From NCBI GenBank assembly GCA_947623305.1, contig CANQGQ010000009.1, forward strand, positions 1 to 64,000: a stretch of 64,000 bases of DNA, written 5' to 3'. Under the pieces are notes generated by a model. That model saw only the letters and a list, made by a program, of their open reading frames with translations, made no database searches and was not told where the DNA came from. Position 1 is the stretch's first letter. The number at the start of each line of letters is the position of its first letter. The DNA is from an uncultured Alistipes sp. (GTDB lineage Bacteria > Bacteroidota > Bacteroidia > Bacteroidales > Rikenellaceae). The translations under genes and the position numbers were made by a program. This document shows, piece by piece, positions 35,524-52,312 of the stretch.

Positions 35524-37570
35524 CTATTTCTGTTTGATGATTAGTTTCGAATTGATGTTGTCGATCGTGACGGTTCCAAACCGCTCCAGCACCGACTGCC
35601 CGAGCAGAAGGGGCGCTTGCTGGTTGTGTGTCACCGAGGCTTCGACATTGCGCAGTACGGAATCGCCGATTTTGATTTCCCGCAATCGGATCTTCGTCCC
35701 TTCGTGGATTTCGCCCGTCGCCGTGCTGAAATACTCCCGCCCCTTGATGTCCGCCTCTTTCAGATACCCGTTTTTAAGCATGAACGATGCCTCTACCGAT
35801 GAAATTGTCACGGTGCTCGCTCCCGTATCGAAGATGAATTTCAGCGGCAGTTCGTTGATCGTACAGGGCACTTCATATACACCGCTGTACATCTTGCGTA
35901 TCTGAATTTCCGATATCGTTTCGACCTTGTCCGCCGAAGTGCTCTCCTTTACGATGTTTATGGGCTTTGCCTTGTACTCCTCGATCAGGGTCTTAAACTC
36001 CGGCAACTCGCGAAGCGAATCCATATCATCGTCGTGCTCAATATGGGCAAAACTGCGGAAACCGAGTTCAAAGGCTTTGCGCAGCGCTTCGAGCGATTCC
36101 GGCAAGTGTCCCATGCGCGCAAGCAGGCAGGCCTTGTCGTAGAAACAACCGCTATTGTTCGGCTCCGATTCGATTATTTTCTCCATCCATTCGACGGCCT
36201 CTTCACCCCTGCCGAGGAAATGCAGTGCATATTGGCGGCAGCTGCCAGATTCCGCAACCGTGTCCTGCCTAATAACCTCTTCAAAGTCGGCATTTGCCCG
36301 CTCCGTATCGCCTCGTTTGCGATACAATTCACCGCGCATCAAGAAAATATACGGATAGGACTTATCTACATCAATACCCGCATTATAGTCTTCCATTGCC
36401 TTATCATCGTCGCCCGACAACTCGCAGCACCAGCCCCGCTGGTAATACGGATAGGCCGAGGTCGGGTCGAGCTCGATGCCGCGCGTAAAGTCGGCAATGG
36501 CCTCCACGTATCGACCGCCCTCGCGGTAATAACCACCCCTTGCGACGATGGCATAATAATCCTCGCCGTCGTTCATCTCGATAGCCCGCGTAATATCCGC
36601 AACAGCCCGCTCGGTATTGCCGACTTCGTTGTAACAGTCGCTTCGGTTGTAATAAATCGTGGCGGATGCCCCATACTCCTGCTCCAGCTGGTCATAGCAG
36701 CCGCATAATCACACCCCCACTTGTAGATATGGATGCGCAGCTGTTTCCACGAATAGTCGTTGTCCTTCTGAATCTGCGTCTGCACCTTGGCGAGGGCGTA
36801 TGTCAGGTGCTTCCTAAATATCAGCTCATATATCGCAGCATGCGGCTCCTCGGCATATTCTATGTATCTGATTGCATCATCAATAGCCTTGTCTGTTTCT
36901 CCCATCTCGTCATATACCTTGCATCGAAACTGATAGATTGCCTCGTACTTTGAGTCGTATTTTTCGCAGTTATTTAACATTTCCAGCGCCGCATTGTATT
37001 CTTTACGGGCAAGCATATTGCGAGCAAGACCAATCATCGCATATAGGTCCGATTCGTTCATTTTAAGTATTTGACCATAATCTTCGTCCGCTTTGTTATA
37101 CTCTTTACGCTCGTAATATATCTGTGCACGGGCTGAAAAGAATGTTCGCCTCATTGCATCATCAGCTTTTTTGAGATATTTATAGGCCATCTGTTGGTCT
37201 GCAAGAGCCTTGTCGGTATCTTCCAGTTCTGTATGATAAATTTCAGCACGCCAAAGGTAGAATGCACATAGTGGTTTCGATGCGGTCTTTTTGTCATATT
37301 TAGCGATAGCCTTAGTGGCATCCGAAAGTGCCAGGTCGACTTTTTCCTGATACAAATAAATAAGGGAGCGCATCATCAGCGCATCGCAGTGATTGGGGTT
37401 TCAGTTAATTGTTTGTCGAGCAACGACAAAATTTCATCCGGGGCACCATTGTTGTTGTACAATTCTTCTGCTTTCCGATAGTTGAAATCGGATGTGTGCT
37501 TTTTCTGCGCAAAAGCACACTCATTGGTAAGGAGCAAAACCCCAAAGACGATAAGGATAATTCTTTTCAT
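35524..37570 (-). pseudogene. Secreted TPR plus retropepsin-like protease gene, two frameshifts
   Basis: Three frames (37570-37376, 37376-36573, 36576-35524) join into one protein of about 682 residues if one base is restored near 37390 and another near 36697. It has a signal peptide (MKRIILIVFGVLLLTNECAFAQ), many TPR units (for example YYQRGWCCELSGDDDKAMED) and a C-terminal retroviral-type aspartyl protease domain with FIFDTGASTV and LLLGQSVLERF. Across each shift the alternate frame continues the TPR pattern (YDQLEQEYGASATIYYNRSD). The total of 2,047 bases plus two is a whole number of codons. Either the gene is broken or these are assembly errors. Paired LytTR-like repeats lie upstream. 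Confidence 0.75.
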
Positions 37571-37698: not shown

Positions 37699-38448
37699 CT
37701 AATGAATGTATGGTTTGATTAGCCTGATGTTAATAGCAAAATTTAGGTTTGCACCAGAATCATCTAATCCAGAGGTTGTGATTCCAATCGCTTCTCCACG
37801 CGAGTTCAATAAAACGCCACCACTACTACCATGATCAATAGGCGCACTTATTTGTAGTATTTCACTACCATCTCCTCGTATCTGTGAAATCTCTCCTGAT
37901 GAAAAGGTGTTATCTAACCCTCTTGGGCTACCTATCGTATATACTTTCTCTCCAACCTTTGGAATCTCTTTTGCCAAAGGAATATATTTTACTCTTTTAT
38001 CAATATCTACCTTAAAGATTATAAAATCACATTCTTTGTCCTTGTGATAAACCTGCTTAATTTTGTACTCTCCGCCATCACTTAATATAATATCTTCAAA
38101 TCCTACGGCTGTTCCTTCAAAGACATGATAATTGCTTACTGCAATCCCATCATTTGAGATGAAAAAGCCAGAGCCTTGGAATCCTTGGTAGCCAGTCGAT
38201 GTGTGAATTTTGAAAACCGCCGGGGACAACTGTTCAAATATCTCACTTGCGGATTTAACAGACCTATTATTAGTTGTGTTCGGAACAGATGACTTGGCAC
38301 TTTTATTGGGCATAGGAGGCCGTTGTCTCTTACTATTATCTGTTATGGGTCGAGACATCGGTTGTCTATTACCGGTTGGCGCGGCAGGTTTTTGTGTACA
38401 TCCATAAAGAACTACACAACAAAGCAGTATAGCGCTCAGGTTCTTCAT
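37699..38448 (-). CDS. Trypsin-like serine protease lipoprotein
   Basis: 249 residues. A lipoprotein signal (MKNLSAILLCCVVLYGC) and a Pro/Ser/Asn-rich linker precede a trypsin/DegP-type domain. The catalytic triad is visible as His in AVSNYHVFEG, Asp in ECDFIIFKVD, and Ser in IDHGSSGGVLLN. No PDZ domain follows. It is the last gene of the eight-gene AT-rich operon, 26 bases after the MotB-like gene. It could process partner proteins or serve as the periplasmic effector of the system (inference). Confidence 0.85.
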   Translation of the reverse strand: MKNLSAILLCCVVLYGCTQKPAAPTGNRQPMSRPITDNSKRQRPPMPNKSAKSSVPNTTNNRSVKSASEIFEQLSPAVFKIHTSTGYQGFQGSGFFISNDGIAVSNYHVFEGTAVGFEDIILSDGGEYKIKQVYHKDKECDFIIFKVDIDKRVKYIPLAKEIPKVGEKVYTIGSPRGLDNTFSSGEISQIRGDGSEILQISAPIDHGSSGGVLLNSRGEAIGITTSGLDDSGANLNFAINIRLIKPYIH

Positions 38449-38474
38449 TCTCTGAAAATATAGTTATACAATTC

Positions 38475-39128
38475 TTAATCTCCAATCTTGCCTGGCTTAG
38501 GGAGTATATGTATAAGGAACCGCTGATTAAGCACCTCAATTTCTTCTCTCATCAGTCCTGTACCAGACAACCTACCATCGCCGCTACCGCAAATTAAGAC
38601 TTCGCAATTCTTATCATTGAATAGTATTCCACTCTCCTCCCAAAACCGTTTTAGGGATAATGCTCGCTCGTAACTCAACTCATAATTACGAGTATAGTTG
38701 TCCTTAGATGCCTGACCCTCAATTATCAGTAAATATTGTATGTTAGGGTTGTTTAAGGTTGTTTTCGCAATGAACTTCTGCAATATTTGCCCAGTCTGTT
38801 TTAAATCTTTTTTTGTCTGTTCTGGTATGTTACTCATTGATGCGCTATTGACAGGAAAACTTACAGTGATTCCTAACTTATGTTTTTTGTACTCAGGAAA
38901 ATATTGAAAATAGTTAGAATGCAGGCTGTCAAGTTCTCTCGTCGCATTGTTAATCTCATCCGCCTTGTCTATTTTTGCCTGCAATTCTTCAGAACGCTCA
39001 ACCGCATCTATTCGTGCACCATTGAGAGCAACAATAGTAACGATGAACAATGTAAGCATCACGAAAAACAGACTTGTCATTAAGTCTGCATAACTTGCCC
39101 AAAAAAAAGATTTATTCTCCGATGACAT
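38475..39128 (-). CDS. MotB/ZorB-like stator protein with OmpA domain
   Basis: 217 residues. The N-terminus FFWASYADLMTSLFFVMLTLFIVTIV is a MotB-type membrane helix carrying the conserved proton-carrier Asp (D15 in YADLMTS). A short coiled coil and a periplasmic OmpA-like peptidoglycan-binding domain follow (YLLIIEGQAS..YELSYERALSLKRFW..FLIHIL). It lies four bases after the MotA-like gene. Together they resemble ZorA/ZorB of Zorya defence systems: proton-driven, cell-wall-anchored motors. Confidence 0.85.
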   Translation of the reverse strand: MSSENKSFFWASYADLMTSLFFVMLTLFIVTIVALNGARIDAVERSEELQAKIDKADEINNATRELDSLHSNYFQYFPEYKKHKLGITVSFPVNSASMSNIPEQTKKDLKQTGQILQKFIAKTTLNNPNIQYLLIIEGQASKDNYTRNYELSYERALSLKRFWEESGILFNDKNCEVLICGSGDGRLSGTGLMREEIEVLNQRFLIHILPKPGKIGD

Positions 39129-39132
39129 AACT

Positions 39133-40809
39133 TTAAGAATCTTTTTCTGTGGTATTGTCCTCCCTCACTACAGTATTTGCATCCTCATTAACTGTTGGCA
39201 TCGAAATGGAGCTCTGCATCTGCTCAAACTTATTATATGGTTGAGTTATAGCAATAGAAGGTTCTGTTAGAACTTTCGGCCTTACAATAAAACTATTATA
39301 GATATACACACCAAATGCAGCCAGAACAACAAACATGATTACCGCAACCATATATACTATTACTTTAGGAAATTGTATCGTTTGTGACACTGTTGCAACT
39401 TCTGAACACTCATTAAGAATGGGTTCTTGTTTTTGCACACTCTGATTATTCAAAATGCCGCACAACCTGTCCAATATCTTTGACTGCTCTTTTGTAGAAT
39501 CAAGGATTTGAGTCATGACCGACTTTACATCCGCAAGATTCTTAATCTCTTGGATAATGTCCGGCATATCAGCATAACGGGCAAATAGTTCCTCTCGTTG
39601 AGCAAGAACCATCTTACTAAACTCGTCTTTCTGTTCTGTATATTGTTTAAGAAGAGCATCGAATTCTGCTGTTGAGTTATTATGCAGTTCAATGACTCCA
39701 TCTTTGGCGCTTTCCGAAAGTTTTTCAAAGGTTTTTCGCAAGGTGTCATCAACCTTTGCTACAACCTCGTTGATGTATTGCTCTCGTGATGTTACCTGCT
39801 CAATTTCCTTCTCGAAAAATGCACCCATTTTTTCAATGGCTGCAGTTCGATTTAGATGCTCGTTAATTTTGTCATTTAATTCATTAACTGAAACTAAATA
39901 TCCTGACACATTGTGGAGATATTTGTTAAAGACAGAGATTTCTCCTGTACAGTCTTTAAGTTCTTTAAGAACTGTCACATTAGCTTGCGCTACTCGTTTA
40001 ATATCGATATCTTTAATAAGCGATATAAGTTCTACCTGTTCTTTTGAGGAGTCTTCAACTTTTGAAAGAGCGGATTCCAAACCATCAATATTGGTCTTGA
40101 AAGTTTGGTTAAATGACATCAGATTTTGTTGTAAAAGATATAAGGCATTAACTGCATTGCCTGATAATACCGGGAGAAGTTCAGTTTGTAGCCACGAGTA
40201 AAATCTATTTTTATTTTCTACTACATGGGAATTAGCATTTTTAGCAGACCATGATAAGGAAGTAGTGCAGAAAATACCCACAAAACTTGCAGCCATCGCA
40301 ATAGCCACGCAAGTCATCAGAGACGAAATGTTGTTAACTAATTCTGAACTATTAAGACCACCATTAAATGCTATGAATCCTATCCCTATTATAATACCTA
40401 CCATAGTCCCCATAAGTCCAAGATAAAGAGGTATAGGCTGTTGAATGTTTATTTCTTCTTCTTTCGCATGGCAATATCTCTCCACAACATCCTTCATAAG
40501 ATAAAAATCACTCGCAGCACCTTTATTCTTTTGAAGATACACATTCAGTGCAGTCCTAATCTCCTGTAGTGTAGGATTATTTGTACTGATATATAACTGC
40601 GAAACTTTTACCATTTCAACATCTTCATCGTGCTCAGACATTGAAGAGTTCACTGGAACATCAAGTTCAACGACAGAATATTCTATCGTTGAACCGGGGA
40701 ATATATCTTCGAAAGTTTCAATCTTGTTTTTGGTATTTCGATAAATGTAGCACTGGAATCCAATTATCGCAACGATGACCAAAACAACTATAATATAGTG
40801 GATTAACAT
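39133..40809 (-). CDS. MotA/ZorA-like membrane protein with long cytosolic tail
   Basis: 558 residues. An N-terminal membrane helix (residues 4-20), then a soluble segment, then a MotA/TolQ-like helix pair: IPLYLGLMGTMVGIIIGIGF (about 126-145) and LMTCVAIAMAASFVGIFCTT (about 164-183). A coiled coil of about 290 residues follows, and one more helix near residue 482-505, with a short C-terminal tail. The GxxGTxxG element is the family signature. ZorA proteins also carry a long coiled tail, but the extra C-terminal membrane helix here is unusual. It pairs with the MotB-like gene downstream. Confidence 0.82.
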   Translation of the reverse strand: MLIHYIIVVLVIVAIIGFQCYIYRNTKNKIETFEDIFPGSTIEYSVVELDVPVNSSMSEHDEDVEMVKVSQLYISTNNPTLQEIRTALNVYLQKNKGAASDFYLMKDVVERYCHAKEEEINIQQPIPLYLGLMGTMVGIIIGIGFIAFNGGLNSSELVNNISSLMTCVAIAMAASFVGIFCTTSLSWSAKNANSHVVENKNRFYSWLQTELLPVLSGNAVNALYLLQQNLMSFNQTFKTNIDGLESALSKVEDSSKEQVELISLIKDIDIKRVAQANVTVLKELKDCTGEISVFNKYLHNVSGYLVSVNELNDKINEHLNRTAAIEKMGAFFEKEIEQVTSREQYINEVVAKVDDTLRKTFEKLSESAKDGVIELHNNSTAEFDALLKQYTEQKDEFSKMVLAQREELFARYADMPDIIQEIKNLADVKSVMTQILDSTKEQSKILDRLCGILNNQSVQKQEPILNECSEVATVSQTIQFPKVIVYMVAVIMFVVLAAFGVYIYNSFIVRPKVLTEPSIAITQPYNKFEQMQSSISMPTVNEDANTVVREDNTTEKDS

Positions 40810-40813
40810 AGCA

Positions 40814-41827
40814 TTATCTTAGTTCTACCATTATTTTCTTTACAACCCTCCATTCTGATTTACTTACCTTCTCCACAATACCTTTAGCCAATATAACTAC
40901 ATCCTTAGGATCTTCAGAGATTCGCTTTATATCACAGATTGAAGATAATAATGTGTCATCATTTTTTGTTATCCTTCGCTTCGCATCATCGTGATTGGTA
41001 CACAACTCTATTTCGGCTGTTGTGCTATCTTGATGTTGAAGAACCAAACGATATATTGAATATCCAGGTTGATATTTTTCATAAACCTCAGATATAGCCA
41101 TACTGTTTGTCTCATTAGCATACAACTCATAAGTAGCCTGTTGTGCCGTTAATATATGCTCATACGCATTTTGCATTCCATTCCTATCATCAGATTGAAC
41201 GCGCTTGAGGACCGACACAGATTGCCTGTAAGTGGCGTCATATCGTTCGGATTTTGCCTCTATCTTGGTTTTTAGCTCATTTATTTCTTTTTTCGTTGCA
41301 TATACATTGCTGATTTGTCTTGCTAATGTCGAATTACAGATTGTTTCCAGCGCTTTTTTTACACGCTGACTTTCAAATTTTTTAAGAAACACTTCAGTTG
41401 AGATAGACTTCGTCCCATACAAATTCATCGTTTTTAATTTTAATAATGCAAGTACAGCACAAGCAAAACCAATTAATCCAAAAACAAGCCCCACGAGTCC
41501 AACTCTCTTGGACTTTTTTATATCACTTTCAATCTCCTTCTTGATTTCTACGCTCTGCTTTTTAATCTCGGCATTAACATTTTCTTTAATAGTTGATTGC
41601 GCCAATTCAATGGCAGTCTTTAACGTATCATCAGCTTTGCCAATGGCATTAGTTATTTCCGCCTCTATCCTTGTGGTAGCATCCAGCACAACCTTGTCTG
41701 CTTCTTCCTTTATTGCGTTGATGGCTTGTCCCTCTTGCTGTTTAATGGCAGATTCAGACTCCTTATTTGGTAGCAATGAGCAGCCTGATATAAAAACTAC
41801 AATAGATATAATAAGTATTTTTCTCAT
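40814..41827 (-). CDS. Coiled-coil lipoprotein with internal membrane helix
   Basis: 337 residues. The signal MRKILIISIVVFISGC ends in a lipobox-like Cys, followed by about 90 residues of Ala/Glu/Lys coiled coil. A hydrophobic helix (VGLVGLVFGLIGFACAVLALL) near residue 115-135 then leads to a helical C-terminal domain. Having both a lipobox and an internal helix is odd; the first segment may instead be a membrane anchor. It lies five bases after the actin-like gene and four before the MotA-like gene. It may be an adaptor between the cytoskeleton-like ATPase and the motor (inference). Confidence 0.7.
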   Translation of the reverse strand: MRKILIISIVVFISGCSLLPNKESESAIKQQEGQAINAIKEEADKVVLDATTRIEAEITNAIGKADDTLKTAIELAQSTIKENVNAEIKKQSVEIKKEIESDIKKSKRVGLVGLVFGLIGFACAVLALLKLKTMNLYGTKSISTEVFLKKFESQRVKKALETICNSTLARQISNVYATKKEINELKTKIEAKSERYDATYRQSVSVLKRVQSDDRNGMQNAYEHILTAQQATYELYANETNSMAISEVYEKYQPGYSIYRLVLQHQDSTTAEIELCTNHDDAKRRITKNDDTLLSSICDIKRISEDPKDVVILAKGIVEKVSKSEWRVVKKIMVELR

Positions 41828-41832
41828 AAATA

Positions 41833-44800
41833 TTATAACTTATAAATATTTCTTACAACTGCATTCAGGATACCAACAAGCGGATAGAAGAACAGCGTCT
41901 CCTCTAATTTATCATCAGCACCATCTTGTTCAATATCTCTCTTCTTATTTGATAGCCCATTGTCGAGATAGGTCTTAACATCACGTAGGCACAAATCTTT
42001 GACGCGATCTTTGATGGAACGATCGATTTCAAAGTTATCAAAGAATGAGAACCTGTGATCAAGATTAAATGCAAAGTCAATATATGATTCCACTGTTGCA
42101 ACAACCTTGTCCTTTATTTCATCAGTTACATCTTCGTAAGTCATCTCGTTATCAGCAAAGGTGCTACTATCTGAACCGAGAAGAACTGTTTTCATATCCT
42201 TTATCTCACTGTAATCTTGAGATTGGAAAGGATTCAAAATTATTCCGCCCTTACATGTAGACTCTTTAGAGTTAGCCGGACGAATTATATCCAGCCCATC
42301 TCTTGAATACGTTTGTTTGTATATTTCCTCAAAAATTATCTTTGTAAACTTAACTAACGTATCATCATTAGAACTGAGGATGTTCAATACCTTTGACCCA
42401 TTACCGCTGAATGTAATATGACGAGGCATATCGTATCCCTTTGCTTTCATTAGATTTGCAATATGATACATTATTGCAACATAGAAAAGTAAAACGACAT
42501 ATTTACCTCTGCTGTCATCAGCCAACATTTCAGCAAAGTCAATCTTTACATTTGCTTTCTGAATTTCTTTATTGGCGGATAGCGAAAATAAGAATGCCAT
42601 AATATCTGTGGAGTTCTTCTTCTCAAGAACAGATTTAAAGACATTCTTTAATGCTCCAAATTTGTTTATTTCTAACTGATTAAGGATTTGACCTTTATAT
42701 TTGTTAACCAATCCATTTGTTTCGGAGTCATACGAATACCCATCGCCAAAAATAGTATTAGCTGCGAATCTGAATGAGGTGAGATATTTCGGCTCGCCTT
42801 TATCAACAATTAAAACATCCGTTGTACCACCACCAATATCGACTGATACCACTGTTGATGTTGCCCCTTTTTTTGCCTTGTGATAATAATATGGTGCAAC
42901 CGATTCGGAAACGGCGATTATATTGTTAATTGGAGCGTCAAACAAAGAAACAAAGGTTTTAACCCATGTATCCTTGAATCGATTAAAACGATTCTGCGTC
43001 ATGCTCGCTGGATAAAACCACACTATCTCCGTCTTGCTTAAGTCTCCATTATTCAACAATACTTTATTGCGAATCATCAACAATAGACATTCAACGTATT
43101 TTGCAGCACGCTGTTTATCCTCGATGTTTGTAGACCATTTAAGATCAGTGTGTAACACATTATATGGCAGTGCCATACTTTTTTCATATGTGTACGGGAT
43201 ATTGACATTGCCCATTGCAATAACAGCTTTGGACCAATTAGTGTTATTCCCCTCAGATATTACAGTACGCATTGGGTATCCGAATAGGCTATCTCCACCA
43301 ATGGTGTTTGGAACCATATCAGAATTAAATGTGCTTCTAATATAAAAGTCTTCATCTATATGCAGCTTCTGAATCTGAAGGTCTTTTTCGCTAATATCAA
43401 ATGGCTTTGACGCTTCGCCATCAATGCTATACTCTATGTGAGTATTTGTGGTTCCAAAGTCAATGGCAAAACGGAATTTCCGTCCGCCATTTTTTGACGA
43501 GAATCGGGGAATTACAACACCATGAATATTTTTATCAATATCATTTATACGCATATATTGATACTCGGAATCCAGTGCATAGATGGCAGAGTCAATAAAA
43601 TCCTTATCATATCGAGAATTATCATTATTTCTATTTCTATACACTACGCCCAAAGGCGACAGCTCATTATTATTCGCATTATAGAATGATATGTTATACG
43701 TATTCGAGGTATCCATAGATACAGTTCCTCGATCAAGTAGGGCAATACGATATATTGGTTTCGTATTATTCGAGTACTTTATACTCGGATATAACCCAAG
43801 AGTAAACCTACATTCTACAATAGCACCCTTGTTGGCATCAACATCTATACGACCATCCTTATAATATATACGTTCATATTGAATGTATCCTTTTTTGATA
43901 GGTATGCGTAAAACTACCTTTACACTATCACCGGCAAGTCTATTAATTTCAATACAATTTTTGCCATTGATAGTGCCAGTTAGATCATCAACCGTGAAGT
44001 AGTCAAAGTATGCTTTTTTCAACGGAAGAAGATAACTATCCTTTGCGTCTTGTTTTTTTAACCCTTCATCATTCCCATTAAAAAAACCATCCGGATTAAA
44101 TTTAAATGGTAACTTGACAATCGAATCCTCCAAAAAATCACTTACTGTTACATACGGATATACTGCTCCGTCGTCTGGAAGTGTTCTGTCATTGATAGGA
44201 CGTTCATCATAATAGGAGACATGTGTGTTTTTATCCCAATTTGCCACAACATAAAAGGTCGGTTCAGTGTATTTCTCAACAGGCAGGGCCAAAGGTATTT
44301 GCATTCCAATCTTATAAAGACTGTTGGAAATTTTCATTTCAAACTCGCTGTTGATATTTGTTATAGAGCGTTTTTTACGCAATTTTTCATCCAATATCAT
44401 CACATATTGCTGTACAGATGATGTTATTGGAATCTCATCGTAGTTATCGAGATAGAAATTGCTATTCACCTGTCGTAATTCTTCTCGCTGTTTATCGTTT
44501 AATTTACGAAAACTTTTTTCAAGATATCTGTCAACTTCAGGGAACTCGCGAGCGAATTCTTTTCGACTATTTTTTAATCCCCACCAGTATTTGACATACT
44601 CAAAATCTCTCATGTAAAGAGGTTTATAATCGTCATCAAAAGGTGTATCGTTGCCAAACTTAATTTTCTTGCCAACATATTTTAAATTATTTGCGGATGT
44701 AAAAAAAACGGTGGCAGGAGATGTGGCTCCTATAATATTCATTTCGTTAGGTGCCGTCGGGTCAATGTAGTTCAATAAGTAAATACAATCCATTTTATCG

Positions 44801-45228
44801 AAATTGTATTCACTATAATCTTGACGCAAATATGTCTGGTATGTTTTTCCTAACCTTCGATGTCCCTCGTAATCTGATACTAATAACTCATCAAGTCCAG
44901 TTTTTTTGTCCCATACGACAATCTCTACAAACTTCCGATATTTTTCAATATTGAAAAATATCTGTCCAACATCCAGACAATCAGATACCAATTTATGATA
45001 TGCTGTTTTCCCATCAAGAGAATCCGAACCCTCTGCGACAATTTTGAAAGCCCGCTTAATTAAATCCATTCGCGCAAAAGGAGAAGGAATAGATGTAATT
45101 TCCCTTTTATCCGTTGCTCCAATTGGGTCTTCAATGGAGTCGATCGCATTTGTACCGATTATTGAGGAATTATCCCAATGCTCTATTGTGTCAGCAGCAC
45201 CTTTATGTAGTCTTAAGACTTTAGCCAT
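41833..45228 (-). CDS. Large actin/Hsp70-like ATPase, 1131 aa
   Basis: The first 580 residues form an unrecognised, Tyr/Asp-rich region. An actin/Hsp70-fold ATPase follows: phosphate-1 loop FAIDFGTTNTHIEY (residues 587-600), connect-like YPASMTQNRF (739), phosphate-2 loop VSVDIGGGTTDVLIVD (794-809) and adenosine motif HITFSGNGSKVL (937-948). All nucleotide-binding loops look intact. Known relatives by fold are chaperones, ParM/MreB-type filaments and sugar kinases; the N-terminal extension is not typical of any. It lies five bases after the tubulin-like gene. Two cytoskeleton-type NTPases side by side are the most unusual aspect of this operon. Confidence 0.8.
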   Translation of the reverse strand: MAKVLRLHKGAADTIEHWDNSSIIGTNAIDSIEDPIGATDKREITSIPSPFARMDLIKRAFKIVAEGSDSLDGKTAYHKLVSDCLDVGQIFFNIEKYRKFVEIVVWDKKTGLDELLVSDYEGHRRLGKTYQTYLRQDYSEYNFDKMDCIYLLNYIDPTAPNEMNIIGATSPATVFFTSANNLKYVGKKIKFGNDTPFDDDYKPLYMRDFEYVKYWWGLKNSRKEFAREFPEVDRYLEKSFRKLNDKQREELRQVNSNFYLDNYDEIPITSSVQQYVMILDEKLRKKRSITNINSEFEMKISNSLYKIGMQIPLALPVEKYTEPTFYVVANWDKNTHVSYYDERPINDRTLPDDGAVYPYVTVSDFLEDSIVKLPFKFNPDGFFNGNDEGLKKQDAKDSYLLPLKKAYFDYFTVDDLTGTINGKNCIEINRLAGDSVKVVLRIPIKKGYIQYERIYYKDGRIDVDANKGAIVECRFTLGLYPSIKYSNNTKPIYRIALLDRGTVSMDTSNTYNISFYNANNNELSPLGVVYRNRNNDNSRYDKDFIDSAIYALDSEYQYMRINDIDKNIHGVVIPRFSSKNGGRKFRFAIDFGTTNTHIEYSIDGEASKPFDISEKDLQIQKLHIDEDFYIRSTFNSDMVPNTIGGDSLFGYPMRTVISEGNNTNWSKAVIAMGNVNIPYTYEKSMALPYNVLHTDLKWSTNIEDKQRAAKYVECLLLMIRNKVLLNNGDLSKTEIVWFYPASMTQNRFNRFKDTWVKTFVSLFDAPINNIIAVSESVAPYYYHKAKKGATSTVVSVDIGGGTTDVLIVDKGEPKYLTSFRFAANTIFGDGYSYDSETNGLVNKYKGQILNQLEINKFGALKNVFKSVLEKKNSTDIMAFLFSLSANKEIQKANVKIDFAEMLADDSRGKYVVLLFYVAIMYHIANLMKAKGYDMPRHITFSGNGSKVLNILSSNDDTLVKFTKIIFEEIYKQTYSRDGLDIIRPANSKESTCKGGIILNPFQSQDYSEIKDMKTVLLGSDSSTFADNEMTYEDVTDEIKDKVVATVESYIDFAFNLDHRFSFFDNFEIDRSIKDRVKDLCLRDVKTYLDNGLSNKKRDIEQDGADDKLEETLFFYPLVGILNAVVRNIYKL

Positions 45229-45233
45229 ATTGC

Positions 45234-46706
45234 TTAAAATTTATATTTCTTTTCAACAAGTTCCTTTGTTACATTGTAGAACAGTTCCATAAATTTCTGT
45301 TCTGTTGTGAGTTTCTTGGGAAGGCTCTTATGACGCTCATTAAGGGCCGCATCATAAAGGTCATATCCACTTTTGTTGAATGCCCACAAAGCCTTAATAG
45401 AAGCAGGTTTAACTCCGCTAACAATCGAATATAAATTGGAATCTGAGACATCAAGGACAAACGGCTTGAATGATCTGTCGTTATCTGCCATCTCCTTAAA
45501 CCACTCCGTGTAAGATTTAACGGCTTTTTTAAGGTTAATTGAAAATGACGATTTAAGATAAGCGTCATCAAACTTATTATCTGTTGCCCAAGGTTGATAG
45601 AGCGCCTTTTTTATATGCTCCTCAATATATTTTGAAAACAAAATATACTGTGTGAAAGGGTAACATAGTATGTCTCTTGTTGTTTGTGTAAGATTTCCGA
45701 ACAAAACCTCTTTAACATCGTTCTCGATTCCAAATTCTTTAAATAAGGAGTTCGGGGCGAATATTTTTGCGTTATCATCTGGTGTGCAGACCAATACTGC
45801 ATCATCATCTGGAATAGAGGCAAAATCAACAATAGAAAGAGCCGAGGCCAATTCAATAATATGCGCATTATTTTTTTGCTCGACGCCTCCTTCTTTGTTT
45901 TCATATTGCTTTGTCCTATCGTCTGCTATGTAATACATTACATTAACAGAGGACTGACCTCCATTCACGTTCTTTTCGTAATATTGAAGTGCAGCTTTGG
46001 TCTTTCCAATGAATGTCGAGGAATCAATTTCACTTTCTTCATCAGGCTTAACGGCAAAGTATGGAAGTACAGATATAGCTCCTATGGGTGCATTTTGTAT
46101 GGCATCACTATTTGGCATGTTGCTATCCAATCCTCTCAAATTCTTCAATAACAGAGGGAAGCCACTTGCTCCAGTTCCGCCAAATATAGAACTTATTATA
46201 AAAATCCTGTCGCCAGGATTAAATGCTGCCGCAAAATCGATAAAGTCTTGTGAATCGGTAAACTGATTAAGGACAACGCTACCGATGTTGGGATTTCCCT
46301 TAAATCCTACTTCCATATTGGATTCAAGGTTGCTCTCAGAGAAAAGCATCGAAGCTAATGCTTTGTTCTCTTTTGATAATATACTATACTCAATAAATTC
46401 ACGGAATTGCTTACTTTTTGTGTCCTTCAAAGTCAAGCGATAGTCATTGACAACATTTTCGATTGCCGTACCAAAAAATTGATTTTTAGTTGTTTCATTA
46501 AATGACAATCTCTCTCGAATGGATCTATATGTTTTGATTTGCTCAATTGTCCGCGTAACATCAGCATTAGCGAAGTCTGGGTCAATGATGATTGGAACAA
46601 TAGCATCAGCATCTACTTTTACTCCAGAAGAAGTCAACATAACCAGTGATTTGATAACGCGGGAACCCGTGCCACCAATTCCGAATATGTATAATTTACC
46701 GTTCAT
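45234..46706 (-). CDS. Tubulin/FtsZ-like GTPase
   Basis: 490 residues. The N-terminal loop YIFGIGGTGSRVIKSLVML has the Rossmann-like tubulin T1 pattern, and IFGGTGASGFPLL (residues 174-186) is the tubulin/FtsZ G-box signature (GGTGxG). Length and motifs fit the tubulin-like proteins found in accessory gene clusters rather than cell-division FtsZ. The protein likely binds GTP and may polymerise. It is the third gene of the operon, directly before the actin-like ATPase. Confidence 0.82.
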   Translation of the reverse strand: MNGKLYIFGIGGTGSRVIKSLVMLTSSGVKVDADAIVPIIIDPDFANADVTRTIEQIKTYRSIRERLSFNETTKNQFFGTAIENVVNDYRLTLKDTKSKQFREFIEYSILSKENKALASMLFSESNLESNMEVGFKGNPNIGSVVLNQFTDSQDFIDFAAAFNPGDRIFIISSIFGGTGASGFPLLLKNLRGLDSNMPNSDAIQNAPIGAISVLPYFAVKPDEESEIDSSTFIGKTKAALQYYEKNVNGGQSSVNVMYYIADDRTKQYENKEGGVEQKNNAHIIELASALSIVDFASIPDDDAVLVCTPDDNAKIFAPNSLFKEFGIENDVKEVLFGNLTQTTRDILCYPFTQYILFSKYIEEHIKKALYQPWATDNKFDDAYLKSSFSINLKKAVKSYTEWFKEMADNDRSFKPFVLDVSDSNLYSIVSGVKPASIKALWAFNKSGYDLYDAALNERHKSLPKKLTTEQKFMELFYNVTKELVEKKYKF

Positions 46707-46718
46707 ATCTTATGTTAT

Positions 46719-47201
46719 TTAGAGAAAAGGAACATGCTTAGCGCAACTGCTCCACCATTTCAGTATAAAGGAGAGGATTATAAAAAACATAGCAGCGACG
46801 AAAAAATTCGCAATGCCGAATCCCCAACAATTTGTTTGACCAATAAGAGTAGATGCCACATTGCCATCTTCATCAAACTGATAGACCAAACTTTCCGGAA
46901 TAAATCCATTGATAAGTTTAGATACTGTAACACCAAATCCAATAAACAATGTAATAGCACTATTTACGCCTAATGTTATTAACCAACTCCACCATTTACA
47001 ATATCTAGGATGATTGATGATATAATAAAATACCACTACGATAATGAGCGATATTACAAGCGTAATCAAGCCAACTAAATTGTATAGATTCGGATTAGTG
47101 TATGCTTCCGTCGCAGGATCATAGCCCCACATAAAATAACTCAAGTCCTGTCCGTACAGAGACTGAAACCAGCAATAGATATGTCCAAGTAAATTTTCCA
47201 T
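46719..47201 (-). CDS. Small four-helix membrane protein, 160 aa
   Basis: Hydrophobic segments at LYNLVGLITLVISLIIVVVF, WWSWLITLGVNSAITLFIGF and NFFVAAMFFIILSFIL, with a possible N-terminal amphipathic helix, suggest three or four passes. A conserved-looking polar loop between them (VYQFDEDGNVASTLIGQTNC) contains one Cys. No family is recognised. It sits three bases after the vWA-like gene and 12 before the tubulin-like gene, so it probably anchors that complex to the inner membrane. Confidence 0.7.
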   Translation of the reverse strand: MENLLGHIYCWFQSLYGQDLSYFMWGYDPATEAYTNPNLYNLVGLITLVISLIIVVVFYYIINHPRYCKWWSWLITLGVNSAITLFIGFGVTVSKLINGFIPESLVYQFDEDGNVASTLIGQTNCWGFGIANFFVAAMFFIILSFILKWWSSCAKHVPFL

Positions 47202-47204
47202 ATT

Positions 47205-48503
47205 TTAATTAATGTTTATTGTTATCGTTGCATATTTATCTGATGATGCATAGGCATCAAATACGCCTTCAACCAAGTACTTCAATCCATACGTTTTTTC
47301 CATTGCACCGGCCGCATGAATATTCAATCCATCCGCATCATTGCAATCATCTATCCACTGTGGCAATTTGCTCAATAATGAGATTTTTACAGTTCCTTTG
47401 CTAATTATTGGCTGATTAAGGGTCAACTTAATAATATGAGAGTACTGAGAAGAAAGATTAGAGTTCTTCGCTATCTCCACAGAATACGACTTGTTTGAAA
47501 TATCATAATTACTATAGTCTAAAAGGTATTCATCTTCAAGCAATAATCTGGAATAGTTAACGCCTATTGATAACTGGAACATATTACTGCCACCTTTATT
47601 TTCCGTCTTAGCTTTGATAATAGAAGTTTTAGGCGATTTTTTATCAAGCGAAAACTTGCCAATTCTTGGCTGAGGCAATATGCTATAATTGACATTTCCA
47701 ACAGAAGATGAAACGGCATATATATTTTGGACACCGCTGCCTTTAATCTTGTGGTAATCGACAGTGGACATAACCTTTTTAAGATACTTGCTATCTCCAA
47801 TCAGCCAAATGTAAAATGGACGTGTATCCTTGATATATTCGTTATCATCAAACTTGTTGTAATATTTACCATCAAACTGGGATAACAAACGCATCACAAC
47901 GAACGAAATGTTGGGATTCTCTAACATCTTTTTTGCAATATGATTTTTAATGCCAATTTGTTGTGCGACTAAATAATCATCAGCATTATCTTTAGCTTTG
48001 TATCTTTTCCCTGGGGAAAAGATACAATCAGATACTAGAACCGCTATTTCATTATTATTCAAGTTCTCCAAGATCTTGCCGATTATATCTGAGATGTCAG
48101 ATGTGCCTAAATTCCCACCGCTATTCAAGCTTACCTGCTTAAAGGTAGATGGCTCAAGTTTGTCAATAAATTCCTTAATATCACTGGTTTGTTGCGAAAT
48201 AACACTATTAATGTAGTTAAGTTCCATCACATTCTTAAATAACGAATCTTCCCGTACACCCAAGTCCGCTAATTGTAAGTCTGATAAATAACTATACACC
48301 GCATTCTCGAAATCGGTTGCCCCTTTAACATATCCATTCATACTGCCGGAATTTTCCACGTAAACCTTCACGGTTGGGGCCGACATACCTTCTGATTGAC
48401 TGATCGAATCAGCAACCTTTTTTGGAGGCTGAGGACCTCCACCACAGCCCACACATACAATCAGGGCGGGAATCAATGTTTTCAGAGCCAACTTAAAACT
48501 CAT
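47205..48503 (-). CDS. vWA-like lipoprotein, first gene of the operon
   Basis: 432 residues from the start at 48503, which gives a good lipoprotein signal (MSFKLALKTLIPALIVCVGC, acylated Cys at 20). An upstream in-frame extension to 48569 runs into the inverted repeat and is rejected. The domain resembles von Willebrand factor A: VKVYVENSGSMNGYVKG occupies the MIDAS position (Glu-Asn-Ser-Gly-Ser in place of Asp-x-Ser-x-Ser) and AVLVSDCIFSPG the second strand. The altered first acid may weaken metal binding. It lies about 40 bases from the invertible promoter segment. Confidence 0.75.
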   Translation of the reverse strand: MSFKLALKTLIPALIVCVGCGGGPQPPKKVADSISQSEGMSAPTVKVYVENSGSMNGYVKGATDFENAVYSYLSDLQLADLGVREDSLFKNVMELNYINSVISQQTSDIKEFIDKLEPSTFKQVSLNSGGNLGTSDISDIIGKILENLNNNEIAVLVSDCIFSPGKRYKAKDNADDYLVAQQIGIKNHIAKKMLENPNISFVVMRLLSQFDGKYYNKFDDNEYIKDTRPFYIWLIGDSKYLKKVMSTVDYHKIKGSGVQNIYAVSSSVGNVNYSILPQPRIGKFSLDKKSPKTSIIKAKTENKGGSNMFQLSIGVNYSRLLLEDEYLLDYSNYDISNKSYSVEIAKNSNLSSQYSHIIKLTLNQPIISKGTVKISLLSKLPQWIDDCNDADGLNIHAAGAMEKTYGLKYLVEGVFDAYASSDKYATITININ

Positions 48504-48543
48504 AATATACTGTAATTCAAACTTTATTTTATTTATTGAGATT

Positions 48544-48824
48544 TCTACAAAAGAAATCTTATATCGCATAATGTATTAAAATACAGCATATTGAATTTAC
48601 TTAGCATCTAACATCTCGTATTAGATGCTTTCTTTTTCATCGCCTTTTTGTAGGATGTGTAAATTTGTATACGCAACGAAATAGTTATGCAAATACGATT
48701 AAACGATGTATAATCACTATATTAAATGACTTTGTGCTATATTGAAAAAAGTTGGCTTATACAAAGTTTGCTTTTATTTTTTTTCATATCTTTGCATAAC
48801 GTAAATTGAGATTTCTTTTGTAGA
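48544..48824. promoter_or_regulatory. Invertible promoter segment of the AT-rich operon, OFF orientation
   Basis: A perfect 16-bp inverted repeat (TCTACAAAAGAAATCT, 48544-48559; complement 48809-48824), partly extended, bounds a 281-base segment. It contains TATCTTTG (48787-48794, plus strand), a -7 box with TTTG at 48767 as weak -33. It now points toward the recombinase gene. Inversion would place it at 48581-48574 on the minus strand, about 70 bases before the vWA-like start. No minus-strand promoter is seen there now. Confidence 0.75.
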
Positions 48825-48826
48825 GA

Positions 48827-50026
48827 TTATTTGTATAACTCCGATATAATGCCCAGATTGACAGAGTCTATCTCATTATTATCCAACGATGTTAGATAAA
48901 TTTGAGTGGTTTTCTCAGATGTATGACCCAATCCTGCACTTATTACCGATATCGGAGCATTGTGCCTCCTAGCAGCAGTAGCCCAACTATGTCGTGCTGT
49001 ATATGAACTAAGAGGAATATCTATTGACAGCATCTTTGACAATTTCTTCAGTTGGCAGTTATACAAATTTATGCCTTTACGGTACTCATTATATGCCTCA
49101 ATTACATCGCTTGATTTAATAATGGGAAACACATATGGGGAATCGTTTGTATATAGTTTGTACCGATTTATAATATCCGCTATATTAGGCTCTATTCTGA
49201 TTGACAACAATTGACCTGTCTTGTGTCTTGCATAGAGAATCATTCCATCCTGGATGTTCGATTTCTTCAAATATGCTATGTCGACAAAAGCCATCCCTCT
49301 TGTACAAAAACTGAAAATAAAAATATTACGGGCAAGTTCTGATGAAGAACCTTCAGTCAGTTCAAGTTTTAATAGTTTTGCAATCAGTTTTTCATCAACG
49401 GCTCTTTTCCGCGTTTTATCTATGCCGGTATATACATTCTGAAATGGATTAGTCTGCTCCACTAAATGTCGACGAACAGCTTTATTGTAGACAGCTCGTA
49501 AAATGCGCATATAAAATGAAATAGAGTTCCTAACTACACCTCTTTGCAATAAATATGCATTGTAATTATCTATCAATTGTTCTGTTATGGCAACAATAGG
49601 GAGATCGGCTCCAATGAAATGCGCAAAGCTTTGCATAGCCCGTTCATAATTTTTGGCTGTACCAATACGATTACATCGCTGCAGGTATTCAATCTGCTCC
49701 TTCATAAATACCAATATCGTAGACTTATTGTATTGATTACGAAACAGCAAGACAATATCATTTGCTGTAAATGCACATCCACGAGATTCAAGTCCCTTGA
49801 TAATAAAAGAAAGCATAGACACCCCACCATCTATTCTGCTTTGAATAGAACTATATTCGACATCAGTGAGGATAATGCGTTGTAATTTGTCATCCCAACA
49901 TTCCGGACTGATATGAATATCGGTCGATATCTGTCGTGTCACTCGTTGATGTGATATTTGATACAAAATTGTCCCCGCTTTTCCTTGGACGCAAGACGGA
50001 CGTAGTTTTACTTTTACTGTTGCCAT
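48827..50026 (-). CDS. Tyrosine recombinase beside the invertible segment
   Basis: 399 residues starting MATVKVKLRPSCVQGKAGT. It has an arm-type N-terminal domain, a SAM-like core-binding domain (ATAKNYERAMQSFAHFIG-like), and the catalytic residues Arg in FCTRGMAFVD, Lys in YARHKTGQ, HxxR in TARHSWAT, His in GLGHTSEKT and Tyr in QIYLTS. Its stop lies two bases from the right inverted repeat. It could be the invertase for that segment or the integrase of the AT-rich island. Its A+T richness matches the operon and not the flanking transfer genes. Confidence 0.9.
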   Translation of the reverse strand: MATVKVKLRPSCVQGKAGTILYQISHQRVTRQISTDIHISPECWDDKLQRIILTDVEYSSIQSRIDGGVSMLSFIIKGLESRGCAFTANDIVLLFRNQYNKSTILVFMKEQIEYLQRCNRIGTAKNYERAMQSFAHFIGADLPIVAITEQLIDNYNAYLLQRGVVRNSISFYMRILRAVYNKAVRRHLVEQTNPFQNVYTGIDKTRKRAVDEKLIAKLLKLELTEGSSSELARNIFIFSFCTRGMAFVDIAYLKKSNIQDGMILYARHKTGQLLSIRIEPNIADIINRYKLYTNDSPYVFPIIKSSDVIEAYNEYRKGINLYNCQLKKLSKMLSIDIPLSSYTARHSWATAARRHNAPISVISAGLGHTSEKTTQIYLTSLDNNEIDSVNLGIISELYK

Positions 50027-50122: not shown

Positions 50123-52312
50123 TTACTTCGCATTTTTCTTGTTGCTGATATCGGCTATCATCGCCTTGACATCCTGACCGACCTGCACGAAATTTCTGTA
50201 GAGAATGCGCTCGCGTTCATCTCGTGACTTGAACACATAGAACTTGGGCAGCGGGAGATATCCAGCCTCTTCCTGCTTTATTTCCTTCATGTCGAAATCT
50301 GTCTTGCAGAAGAATTTCGAGGTCTTGAACTCGTCGGACTCCTGAATGTTCATCGAGCCGCCGACGCCGACTTTCGTCTGCACGAAGTCGCGTGCCGTCT
50401 GACCGCAAATCTAACCTGTTGGCATATCCGATATCTTCGATGCCGGCACAAGGCTGTCCATATTCTCATTGAGATTGATGGAGGTTTTGTCGCGGTCGAT
50501 TGTCACGCCTTTTTTGAGTTGCACGACCTTACCGAAGATGTCGCTCGACAGCCACTCCAATGTCTCCTTGTTCCGGGCGGAACCGCTGACCACATTGCCG
50601 ACGGTCGTGATGATTTTCTGCATACCCACCTTGCCATAGTCGGCTTCGAGCTGCGGCAGTTCGTGAAAACCGAGCGTAACGCTGACCTTGTTGCTTCGCG
50701 CCGTACCGATCAGACGGTCGATTTTGTGGAAATAGAGCGTCGGCAACTCGTCGACAATGATGCTGACGGGTACATTCTTTCCCTGTCCGGTATTCACTCT
50801 CGTCACCAGACGATTGAGGATAAGGGCGTTCAGCGCACCGATGATGCTCTCCATTTCCGGGTCGTTGGCAATAAGCAGGTAACTGGGCGACTTGGGGTCG
50901 GAGACTTTCAAGTCGAAGTCGTCACCGTCCTTGTGGAATATCCAGTAACTCTCCTTTGTCGCCAATCGGGAGGTATAGACACGCAGCGTACCGATCATAC
51001 CTTCCAACTGTTCCATCGCCTTGTTCTTCAATGCGGTCTGAAACGGTCCGAGCAGAGGGGCGACCTCGTTGTCGGTCTCCAACACCTCGAAGATTGTTTG
51101 GTAACTCTCATTGAGGAACGAGAGGATGTGCGGCATATCGGAGTATTTGCCGAGCCAATATGCCGGCTCGACGATATTTCCGTCCTTGCGGTCCCGCACG
51201 ACGCCCGTCGGTTTCCAAAATTTCGTTTTCGGATCCTGTGCCTTCTCCGCATAGAGTTTGTTGCCGTCGGCGTCATAGGGTTCTTTCTCGTAGTTCACGA
51301 AAAAGTAGATGCAGGCAGCAAGAAAGTTCACCGCCGAGGTCTGGAAGAACTGGTCGCTGCCGCCACCGCCTTCCTTCTTGCCCTTCTGCAATGATTCCAG
51401 CAGTGTCTCCGCCGTTTCGCTGGCGGCTGCAAGATTGTTGATGTACTTCGATTGAATCGGGTTTACGCGGCGCGAATACTCCACATCGACGAAGTTGATG
51501 ATGTTGAACTTGCAGCCTTGGGGGAGCAGCCCCAATTTTTTGTTCTTCTTGTAGTGGTAGTAAAGTTTTGTCGCCAGCGTCGGAAACTTGTAGTCGTAGA
51601 CCACCATTGCGAAACCCTTTGCACTGTGCTGCCGGATGAACGGCTCGATAATCGAAAAGGTCTTGCCGGAGCCGGGCGTTCCCACGACCCACGTGCCACG
51701 AAATGGGTTGACGATATTGACCCAGCCCTTGCGGAACTTGCCCTTGTAGTAGTACCGCATAGGAATGTTTACGCTGTACTTGTTCTTCTGCTCCTCCTGA
51801 CACTGCTCGAAACTCTCGTTCTCGAAATTGAAGCGGTCTTTGAGCAAACCCTCTTTGAGAAACTTGGAGATATTGTCGAGCGCGATATGCACCAATACGA
51901 CACCAACGACAGTCGTGAGCATATAGAAGATGATGTTCAAAGGCAGGGAATAAAACCGCACTTGTATCGGGTGATTGAACAACCATACCGAGAGGACGAG
52001 CAGCAGCACGCCGCTCACTAACGGGTAGAGCACCTGCCGGCGGGCATTGAACTCCAAATGTTTCTTGTTGCGCGTGCCGATGCAGGTGATGCAGATAAGC
52101 ACAAAGGTGGCAATCTTGCTGTACACGAGGTTGCCGTCGTTGTAAATCATCCACCGTTTGATACGGTCGTGAATATCCACGAGGATGCCGCCCCAGTGGT
52201 CGAGCATCACGGGGTCAATTGCATACTCGAAGAACTCCATCAGCACGGAGACATAGATCGCCGCGCGAAACAGTTTATAAAAGCCCTGCAACTCCTTGCT
52301 CTCTTCCATCAT
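50123..52312 (-). pseudogene. VirD4-type coupling protein with in-frame TAG
   Basis: A conjugative coupling protein of about 730 codons. It has N-terminal membrane helices (VLYPLVSGVLLLVLSVWLF and LNIIFYMLTTVVGVVLVHI), Walker A GTPGSGKTFS and Walker B SIIVDELPTLYF. The reading frame is closed by TAG at 50413-50411 after ISDMPTG. It continues in the same frame with ICGQTARDFVQTKVG to a natural end at 50123 (ISNKKNAK). The base change is compatible with a former Gln, Trp or Tyr codon. The protein normally brings the relaxase-DNA complex to the transfer channel; the stop removes about 96 residues. Confidence 0.85.

Follow-up and report, generated by a model that had tools for sequence, protein, structure and literature searches.

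What could bring relatives of tubulin and actin together with relatives of the flagellar stator in one bacterial operon? The question is raised by eight genes at positions 37699..48503 of a 64,000-nucleotide (nt) stretch of contig CANQGQ010000009.1 from an uncultured Alistipes sp. (GenBank assembly GCA_947623305.1). This whole stretch is called the window below. Our tentative answer is an anti-phage device of the cell envelope, with a conserved tubulin-like, actin-fold, ZorB-like plus MotA-like, vWA-like and swappable-hydrolase gene set and a predicted promoter-inversion switch. The initial annotation, made from the letters alone, had described eight tightly packed, AT-rich genes on the minus strand. 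The coordinates and the intergenic gaps of 3-26 bases were borne out, and the GC content of the operon is 0.35-0.39 against about 0.50-0.57 in the flanks. Lipoboxes and transmembrane (TM) segments were called here by simple scripts on sequence and hydrophobicity, not by SignalP or TMHMM. The genes, in order of reading, are:

47205..48503, minus strand: vWA-like lipoprotein; the open reading frame (ORF) opens at 48569, and the lipobox fits the ATG at 48503
46719..47201, minus strand: membrane protein of 160 amino acids with three hydrophobic segments
45234..46706, minus strand: tubulin/FtsZ-like GTPase, 490 amino acids
41833..45228, minus strand: predicted actin/MreB-fold ATPase, 1131 amino acids, with a 580-residue N-terminal part
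40814..41827, minus strand: coiled-coil protein with a lipobox-like start and one inner hydrophobic segment
39133..40809, minus strand: MotA/ZorA-like protein with four hydrophobic segments and a long coiled-coil-like tail
38475..39128, minus strand: MotB/ZorB-like protein with one TM segment carrying Asp15 and an OmpA-type peptidoglycan-binding domain
37699..38448, minus strand: HtrA/trypsin-like lipoprotein protease, the local occupant of the swappable slot for predicted hydrolases

The gene set is conserved and is not a chance cluster. Of 7999 candidates scored in a protein search, 5770 were relatives of the tubulin-like protein, and a genome scan gave at least 555 relatives among 597 candidate stretches, of which the best 80 were kept. 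Three loci from viral contigs and six further regions raised the set to 89 loci, or 90 with the window; the short copies L001-L007 were dropped from the locus counts. The order vWA-like lipoprotein, small membrane protein, tubulin-like protein, actin-fold ATPase, coiled-coil protein, MotA-like protein, MotB-like protein recurred in most of the 80 kept loci and, in part, in ten further genomes; a shared order across Bacteroidota was what the initial annotation had proposed to look for. By profile, the 90 loci contained the vWA-like gene in 83 cases, the small membrane protein in 83, the actin-fold gene in 85, the coiled-coil gene in 74, the MotA-like gene in 67, the MotB-like gene in 55 and the trypsin-like gene in 32. 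The tubulin-like gene was present in all 90 by construction, and many of the misses were due to contig ends. By label, most hosts belonged to Bacteroidota; there were also some Leptospiraceae, one Sulfuricurvum and a few Firmicutes.

The occurrence of the set is patchy. Relatives of the tubulin-like protein were found in 12 of 395 genomes of the phylum, 7 of 200 of the family and 6 of 150 related genomes, the genome of the window being included each time and some matches being distant. The gene set is therefore accessory. The ten further genomes were found by the tubulin-like profile alone. Twelve regions were looked at, two of which (L205 and L206) were treated as repeats of L044 and L086, and the genomes with distant matches only (G333, G432, G565 and G580) stand outside this set. 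All ten carried the vWA-like gene, nine the actin-fold gene and six both MotA and MotB. Two held broken copies, L207 and L208, which appear to be decaying: foreign ORFs lie within the vWA-like and tubulin-like genes of L207, and the actin-fold and coiled-coil genes are lacking in L208.

Some variants of the layout were also seen. In L018, L032, L038, L047, L049 and L051, two genes stand in place of the MotA-like gene, a short one with a single TM segment and another for the remainder. At L025, L037, L053 and L054, where MotB was not found, the operon is followed by a four-TM protein of 474-523 amino acids and by proteins with weak zinc-ribbon/SH3 matches. The locus L096:8303-19343, on a contig classed as viral (IMG/VR), has no coiled-coil gene in the profile map and ends with a DUF4357 protein and a non-specific nuclease. 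Genes of the purK/purE type lie upstream in L057 (Pfam ATP-grasp and AIRC) and, by clustering, in L062, L076 and L079; this neighbourhood is a preferred chromosomal spot in one clade.

Are the parts intact? The residues that had been called intact at the outset were kept in the aligned relatives (the alignments hold the window sequence twice, as query and as hit). The GGTG loops of the tubulin-like protein were present in 91 of 91 rows, Asp15 of the MotB-like protein in 57 of 58, where the OmpA motif was also kept, and His108, Asp141 and Ser209 of the trypsin-like protease in 33 of 33. Loss of such residues in related copies had been named as an argument against the idea; two of the ten further genomes do hold broken copies of the gene set. 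Scans of the single window proteins against family models gave strong matches for the protease, moderate ones for the MotB-like protein and weak ones for the tubulin-like, MotA-like and actin-type proteins; a PDZ domain was not found in the window protease. The Pfam matches of the tubulin-like protein (Tubulin_2 5.7e-4, Tubulin 2.1e-3) were both below the cut-off, and several homologues carry PF13809 or PF00091. The coiled-coil protein had a sub-cut-off match to SseC. A Pfam match to SrfB (E 0.05, one loop only) was dropped, and the open-licence PubMed Central (PMC) literature on srfABC held nothing on this operon.

Structure prediction, another of the proposed checks, was carried out for two of the proteins. 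The model of the vWA-like protein had a predicted local distance difference test score (pLDDT) of 88.5, and vWA/integrin-I folds were prominent among its matches, with middling Z scores. In its alignment the lipobox Cys was present in 78 of 82 rows, and E72-x-S-x-S76 and D181 were nearly invariant, the pattern sought for the metal ion-dependent adhesion site being DxSxS...D. The 1131-residue ATPase, first described as actin/Hsp70-like, is more exactly predicted to adopt an actin/MreB fold with phosphate loops. Folds missing from the structure matches listed for these two models were not read as differences. Downstream of the operon, a DnaJ-domain protein (2.3e-12) with a hydrophobic segment was seen at L050:19291-20172, and DnaJ occurred in 4 of 80 downstream proteins tested; such a J-domain could act on the actin/Hsp70-type ATPase.

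The kinship of the motor genes to Zorya, also suggested by the initial annotation, was supported for the MotB-like protein. Its nearest solved structures were 8vvn (E 4.3e-15) and then 8qyd (2.3e-8), before flagellar MotB (1.2e-5). The entry of 8qyd says only 'Membrane protein', and we take it to be ZorB as well. 8vvn is the ZorB of Zorya I (PMC11890865). ZorB1 models matched 35 of 35 MotB-like members tested; the MotB-type models of PADLOC are the ZorB ones, so that a match alone does not discriminate. The MotA-like protein was less telling: the window copy matched ZorA1 at E 1.6e-5, no single ZorA model matched more than 7 of 33 members, and its tail and TM layout are predicted from hydrophobicity only. 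The structures matched by the MotA-like profile (coiled coils, lactose permease) were taken as chance.

The last gene, judged from sequence, is a swappable slot for exported hydrolases. When the unassigned genes of the loci were clustered, there were families sitting mostly just downstream of MotB, and their representatives matched DNA/RNA non-specific endonuclease (7e-48), gag-type aspartyl protease (7e-18), staphylococcal nuclease (1.6e-24) and endonuclease/exonuclease/phosphatase of the DNase-I-like kind (5e-13) in Pfam. In the alignments of these other slot hydrolases the conserved positions fit the catalytic motifs, at what we take to be the motif positions, and most slot members have a lipobox or signal-like start by script. 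At least one of the five hydrolase families was found in the operon tail of 46 of the 54 loci with MotB, window included: 27 had a protease only, 7 a nuclease only and 12 both. The trypsin-like and the aspartyl protease never occurred together (0 of 54), and at L048 the slot holds a transglutaminase-like lipoprotein instead. The set of 54 leaves out L010-L013, where the tubulin-like protein is only distantly related and the operon is missing, and L095, a copy of L096.

The hydrolase profiles matched 64 of 144 operon-continuing downstream ORFs versus 0 of 481 upstream ORFs, and lipobox-like starts were found in 71 of 144 versus 39 of 481. On the tubulin tree, the protease state required at least 13 changes and the nuclease state 12, compared with means of 22.6 and 17.7 when the labels were shuffled 200 times; with 58 loci, a looser set, the figures were 15 and 13. 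The changes were thus fewer than with shuffled labels, yet far from a single event. In two related further genomes a prolyl-oligopeptidase-like lipoprotein, read from the sequence by eye, lies nearby. In the window, 1.1 kb past the operon, positions 35524-36576 encode a TPR protein with a gag-type aspartyl protease domain (Pfam 1.1e-16). Its protease domain is of the same family as the enzymes in the protease slot of relatives, but the GC content of the gene is like that of the flanks, and a signal-like start is lacking.

How might such an operon be controlled? Upstream of it lie four further features:

48827..50026, minus strand: tyrosine recombinase, predicted local promoter invertase (Pfam Phage_int_SAM_5 1.2e-18, Phage_integrase 3.9e-9)
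48807..48827: outer inverted-repeat arm, predicted recombination site, 21 nt with two mismatches to the inner arm, starting at the 3' end of the recombinase gene
48562..48806: predicted invertible promoter segment, 245 bp, with its -7 element facing away from the operon as assembled (OFF)
48541..48561: inner inverted-repeat arm, 37 nt before the likely start codon of the vWA-like gene (48503)

A repeat pair as good was found in 0 of 200 shuffles, and the rest of the genome held one further match to the arm at three or fewer mismatches. Each arm, viewed by eye, is a dyad of two half-sites around a spacer and has the look of a tyrosine-recombinase site. The -7 element of the window, TATCTTTG followed by C, lies at 48787-48794 on the plus strand, 12 nt from the arm that it faces, and the same strand of the segment holds a second element, TAAATTTG. 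By eye, a -33 TTTG is present in the window only at an odd 16-nt spacing; in a scan for -33 elements belonging to the arm-near -7 elements, the full TTTG was found only in L080.

Similar layouts occur in relatives. An upstream scan gave a repeat pair in 15 of 77 regions. We looked closely at the window and nine loci picked for a recombinase or good repeats; L065, with no vWA-like start in hand, and the listed repeat-pair loci L023, L032, L034, L047, L054, L074 and L075 lie outside this sample. Repeats together with a -7 element were found in eight of the ten (the window, L014, L061, L063, L066, L080, L081 and L084), while L071 had no repeats and L089 had repeats without a -7 element. In all eight, a TANNTTTG element of the -7 TANNTTTGY type ends 8-14 nt from the arm faced. 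Three loci, L014, L061 (for its outer segment) and L080, have it pointing towards the operon; in the other five (the window, L063, L066, L081 and L084) it faces the opposite way. The window, L014, L063, L066, L081 and L084 carry a recombinase of this family immediately upstream and in the same orientation; the contig of L061 starts at the locus, and for L080 none is in hand. The switch-bearing loci fall into two well separated clades of the tubulin tree, window/L014 and the L061-L084 group, and the switch label changes seven times by parsimony, the absence calls being uncertain.

One inversion was seen between relatives. The tubulin-like proteins of L061 and L063 are almost identical, and the two loci have collinear flanks of 86-89% identity, while the 200-bp segment between the arms is inverted (86%; L061:74-273 versus L063:533-732). 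Both promoter orientations thus occur between these relatives. Further repeat sites upstream of the operon were seen in L061 and L063, and they suggest two invertible segments in tandem.

The recombinase is probably a promoter invertase. Homologues (E up to 1e-40) are present in 70 of 151 genomes of the genus, and of the five that were fetched four have repeats around a promoter at the 3' end; for the fifth, L157, the contig ends first. Because of these homologues we preferred the invertase reading and set aside the reading of 48827-50026 as an integrase or mobility gene. The genes that follow the homologues (L156, L158, L159 and L160) are NusG/UpxY-like in two cases, an AAA ATPase gene and an FHA/kinase pair; the names UpxY-like (L156 and L159), AAA ATPase and FHA/kinase are our reading of the sequences. 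The recombinase family looks like a general promoter-invertase module in the genus. As described in the part of the literature drawn on here, the invertible promoters of Bacteroidales resistance genes lie directly downstream of an invertase gene and carry the same -7 element, are tied to upxY capsule loci and conjugative elements, and may come as two adjacent segments (PMC8748976), to which the two-segment arrangement of L063 can be likened.

This bears on the proposal that base composition and the neighbouring recombinase indicate horizontal transfer. With the recombinase better read as an invertase, we do not take it as evidence of transfer. A conjugative element does adjoin the operon, as conjugation genes (T4CP, TraM, DUF4138 and TraG) begin 0.4 kb beyond the recombinase. 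The coupling-protein gene at 50123-52312 may end early, since the short ORF after it reads, by eye, like its C-terminus. Elsewhere in the window, a 919-amino-acid protein at 16574-19333, with coiled-coil-type matches only, lies in a lower-GC stretch near a Mob relaxase. No convincing long direct repeat marking the element ends was found in the window. The window DNA was found in no plasmid record by near-match search and the tubulin-like protein in no phage record; distant tubulin-like proteins occurred in four records of a plasmid collection, three of them cyanobacterial.

What, then, might the machine do? In the anti-phage reading that we tentatively favour, the MotA/MotB pair would be an ion-driven stator of the inner membrane, pinned to peptidoglycan by its OmpA-type domain and bearing a long cytoplasmic tail. 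The tubulin-like and actin-fold proteins may assemble on this cytoplasmic tail, in the manner of FtsZ and FtsA during cell division. Peptidoglycan damage by an entering phage, or a cytoplasmic cue, would set the motor moving, and the movement would be relayed outward through the coiled-coil and vWA-like lipoproteins to release or activate the periplasmic protease. The protease, trypsin-like here and aspartyl elsewhere, and the nuclease in relatives having one might then attack the injection apparatus and the DNA at the entry point. Since the enzymes would be costly or dangerous, the promoter would be ON in only part of the population. Zorya requires ion flow, peptidoglycan binding and the ZorA tail (PMC11890865, in the portions used here); by analogy these requirements would hold in our model, with the effectors on the opposite side of the membrane. 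A bolder form of this idea, which we consider doubtful, is a new class of immune machine in which tubulin-like and actin-type filaments on a peptidoglycan-anchored rotary motor fire inside-out, directing interchangeable periplasmic proteases and nucleases at a phage in mid-envelope, with a flipping promoter as a population gamble. Should the anti-phage reading be right, the operon would encode, as far as our searches show, the first machine uniting relatives of tubulin, actin and the flagellar stator, and the battlefield of motor-based defence would shift into the periplasm.

A defence role is a prediction from sequence, and several observations weigh against it. Related, near-identical loci were counted separately, so the locus counts are not independent. 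A profile alignment of the tubulin-like protein with FtsZ was not significant, ZorA was absent from the solved structures matched by the MotA-like profile, and models of ZorC, ZorD and ZorE matched none of the eight proteins at E up to 0.1. The hydrolase slot is not universal: 8 of the 54 loci are without such a hydrolase, some of them ending at a contig end, and beyond the nearest 80 loci the tail is weaker, being in line in 3 of the 10 further genomes and on the other strand in one more. The window operon has a protease and no nuclease. The DUF6804 small membrane protein found downstream (7 of 80 proteins tested, for example L034:16722-17015) is not accounted for by the model. Capsules and other traits are also driven by promoter inversion, which is therefore no specific mark of defence. 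Nor was there a defence-island signal, as defence families matched both upstream ORFs (type I methyltransferase, AriA and UzuA) and control ORFs (Hachiman and AbiE), among 25 of 55 and 25 of 81 families listed, respectively. For this comparison, taking at most three ORFs of at least 130 amino acids per locus gave 200; of those no longer than 700 amino acids, the first 150 in locus order were thinned by hand to 125, so that loci after L078 fall outside. The control comprised 85 ORFs at the beginning of 20 contigs from other genomes, contig starts being not ideal as a control.

A rival reading, which we think unlikely, is an envelope-remodelling or vesicle machine with no immune role: the inner membrane would be deformed by the tubulin-like and actin-fold proteins, while the motor would load or shed lipoprotein hydrolases. 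It follows the proposal of 2010 that sets of FtsZ-like, vWA and OmpA proteins remodel membranes (PMC2875224). DNA inversion was reported to control the formation of vesicles by B. fragilis (PMC4747536), both papers as given in the sections used here, and the cargo consists of lipoproteins. A basic device of this kind should be common, yet tubulin-like relatives occur in few genomes of the phylum (the 12 of 395 above), and the swappable protease/nuclease slot resembles, in our judgement, conflict systems.

Somewhat less probable still is a contact or competition device that exposes or delivers the proteases and nucleases against rival bacteria. The exported hydrolases are indeed the variable part, phase variation is common for surface competition traits, and the DUF6804 protein could be an immunity protein. 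On the other hand, no known immunity family was recognised beside the hydrolases (in one tally, among 25 of 75 families listed), and none of the eight proteins matched a secretion or needle family, bar the sub-cut-off SseC match of the coiled-coil protein. A nutrient device, a Ton- or gliding-type motor powering the uptake of DNA or protein fragments cut by periplasmic enzymes, would accord with the MotA/MotB-type pair and the broad-specificity protease and nuclease families, but it is improbable, as there is no SusCD/TonB receptor family among the eight proteins and the tubulin-like and actin-fold proteins would be left unexplained. Zorya proper, with unrecognised ZorC-E, has the MotB likeness to ZorB in its favour and is very improbable given the missing ZorC/ZorD/ZorE matches, the weakly ZorA-like MotA and the export signals of the hydrolases.

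How does the operon compare with what is known? The initial annotation had not recognised the combination. In our searches of the open-licence literature, no description turned up that joins an actin-fold ATPase with a ZorB-like motor part, an exported hydrolase slot and promoter inversion. The gene kind as a whole is partly known, as FtsZl1 with vWA and OmpA. Among the papers that these searches listed, none beyond PMC2875224 and, loosely, PMC7159879 describes the gene set; the main text of an inverton survey (PMC11892184) gave no match for tubulin, MotA or von Willebrand. The searches made found no homologous operon of known function and a conserved neighbourhood, the two points on which the idea had been said to turn besides the key residues.

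FtsZl1, noted in 2010 by Makarova and Koonin, is a tubulin-like GTPase with vWA and OmpA neighbours, for which membrane remodelling was proposed; most members have an extended coiled coil after the GTPase domain, and a reviewer asked how the cytoplasmic and periplasmic parts could cooperate (PMC2875224). Our operon shares the tubulin-like GTPase, the vWA partner (by fold, with middling Z) and the OmpA-domain partner, and further membrane genes, and a Bacteroides caccae sequence appears in the alignment legend of that paper, whose supplementary tables may list the Bacteroides operon. The sections used here mention neither an actin-type ATPase nor MotA, a hydrolase slot or a switch among the partners. 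If our reading is right, the 2010 prediction without known function would become directly testable: natural ON and OFF states would be provided by the switch, and the damaging part would be told by the swappable slot.

The predicted conflict systems of Kaur et al. (2020) likewise have tubulin, HSP70-type and vWA parts (PMC7159879). They differ in their TRAFAC GTPases, their occurrence mainly in Firmicutes and Actinobacteria and the lack of a motor, MotA/TolQ not being found in the text available. A Pfam scan gave no match to a P-loop GTPase family in our eight proteins, the TRAFAC/GAP1-N2 profile of Kaur et al. not being among the models. SNIPE, a membrane nuclease that cuts phage DNA during injection, resembles the operon in placing a nuclease at the membrane against DNA in transit and, as far as its description was drawn on here, differs in being membrane-bound without the motor, the NTPases and the exported enzymes (PMC13190303). 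The capsule and resistance-gene invertible promoters of Bacteroidales share the promoter between inverted repeats immediately 3' of the invertase gene and the -7 TANNTTTGY element, whereas the cargo here is a tubulin-actin-motor machine (PMC8748976, in the part used). Zorya I/II (ZorAB with ZorCD or ZorE) shares the MotA/MotB-type pair, the MotB Asp, the OmpA-type peptidoglycan-binding domain and, by prediction, the long MotA tail, and its effectors also vary between types. Unlike Zorya, this operon adds tubulin-like, actin-fold, vWA-like and coiled-coil genes and gave no ZorC/D/E match, its putative effectors are exported proteases and nucleases, and in some loci its promoter is predicted to invert.

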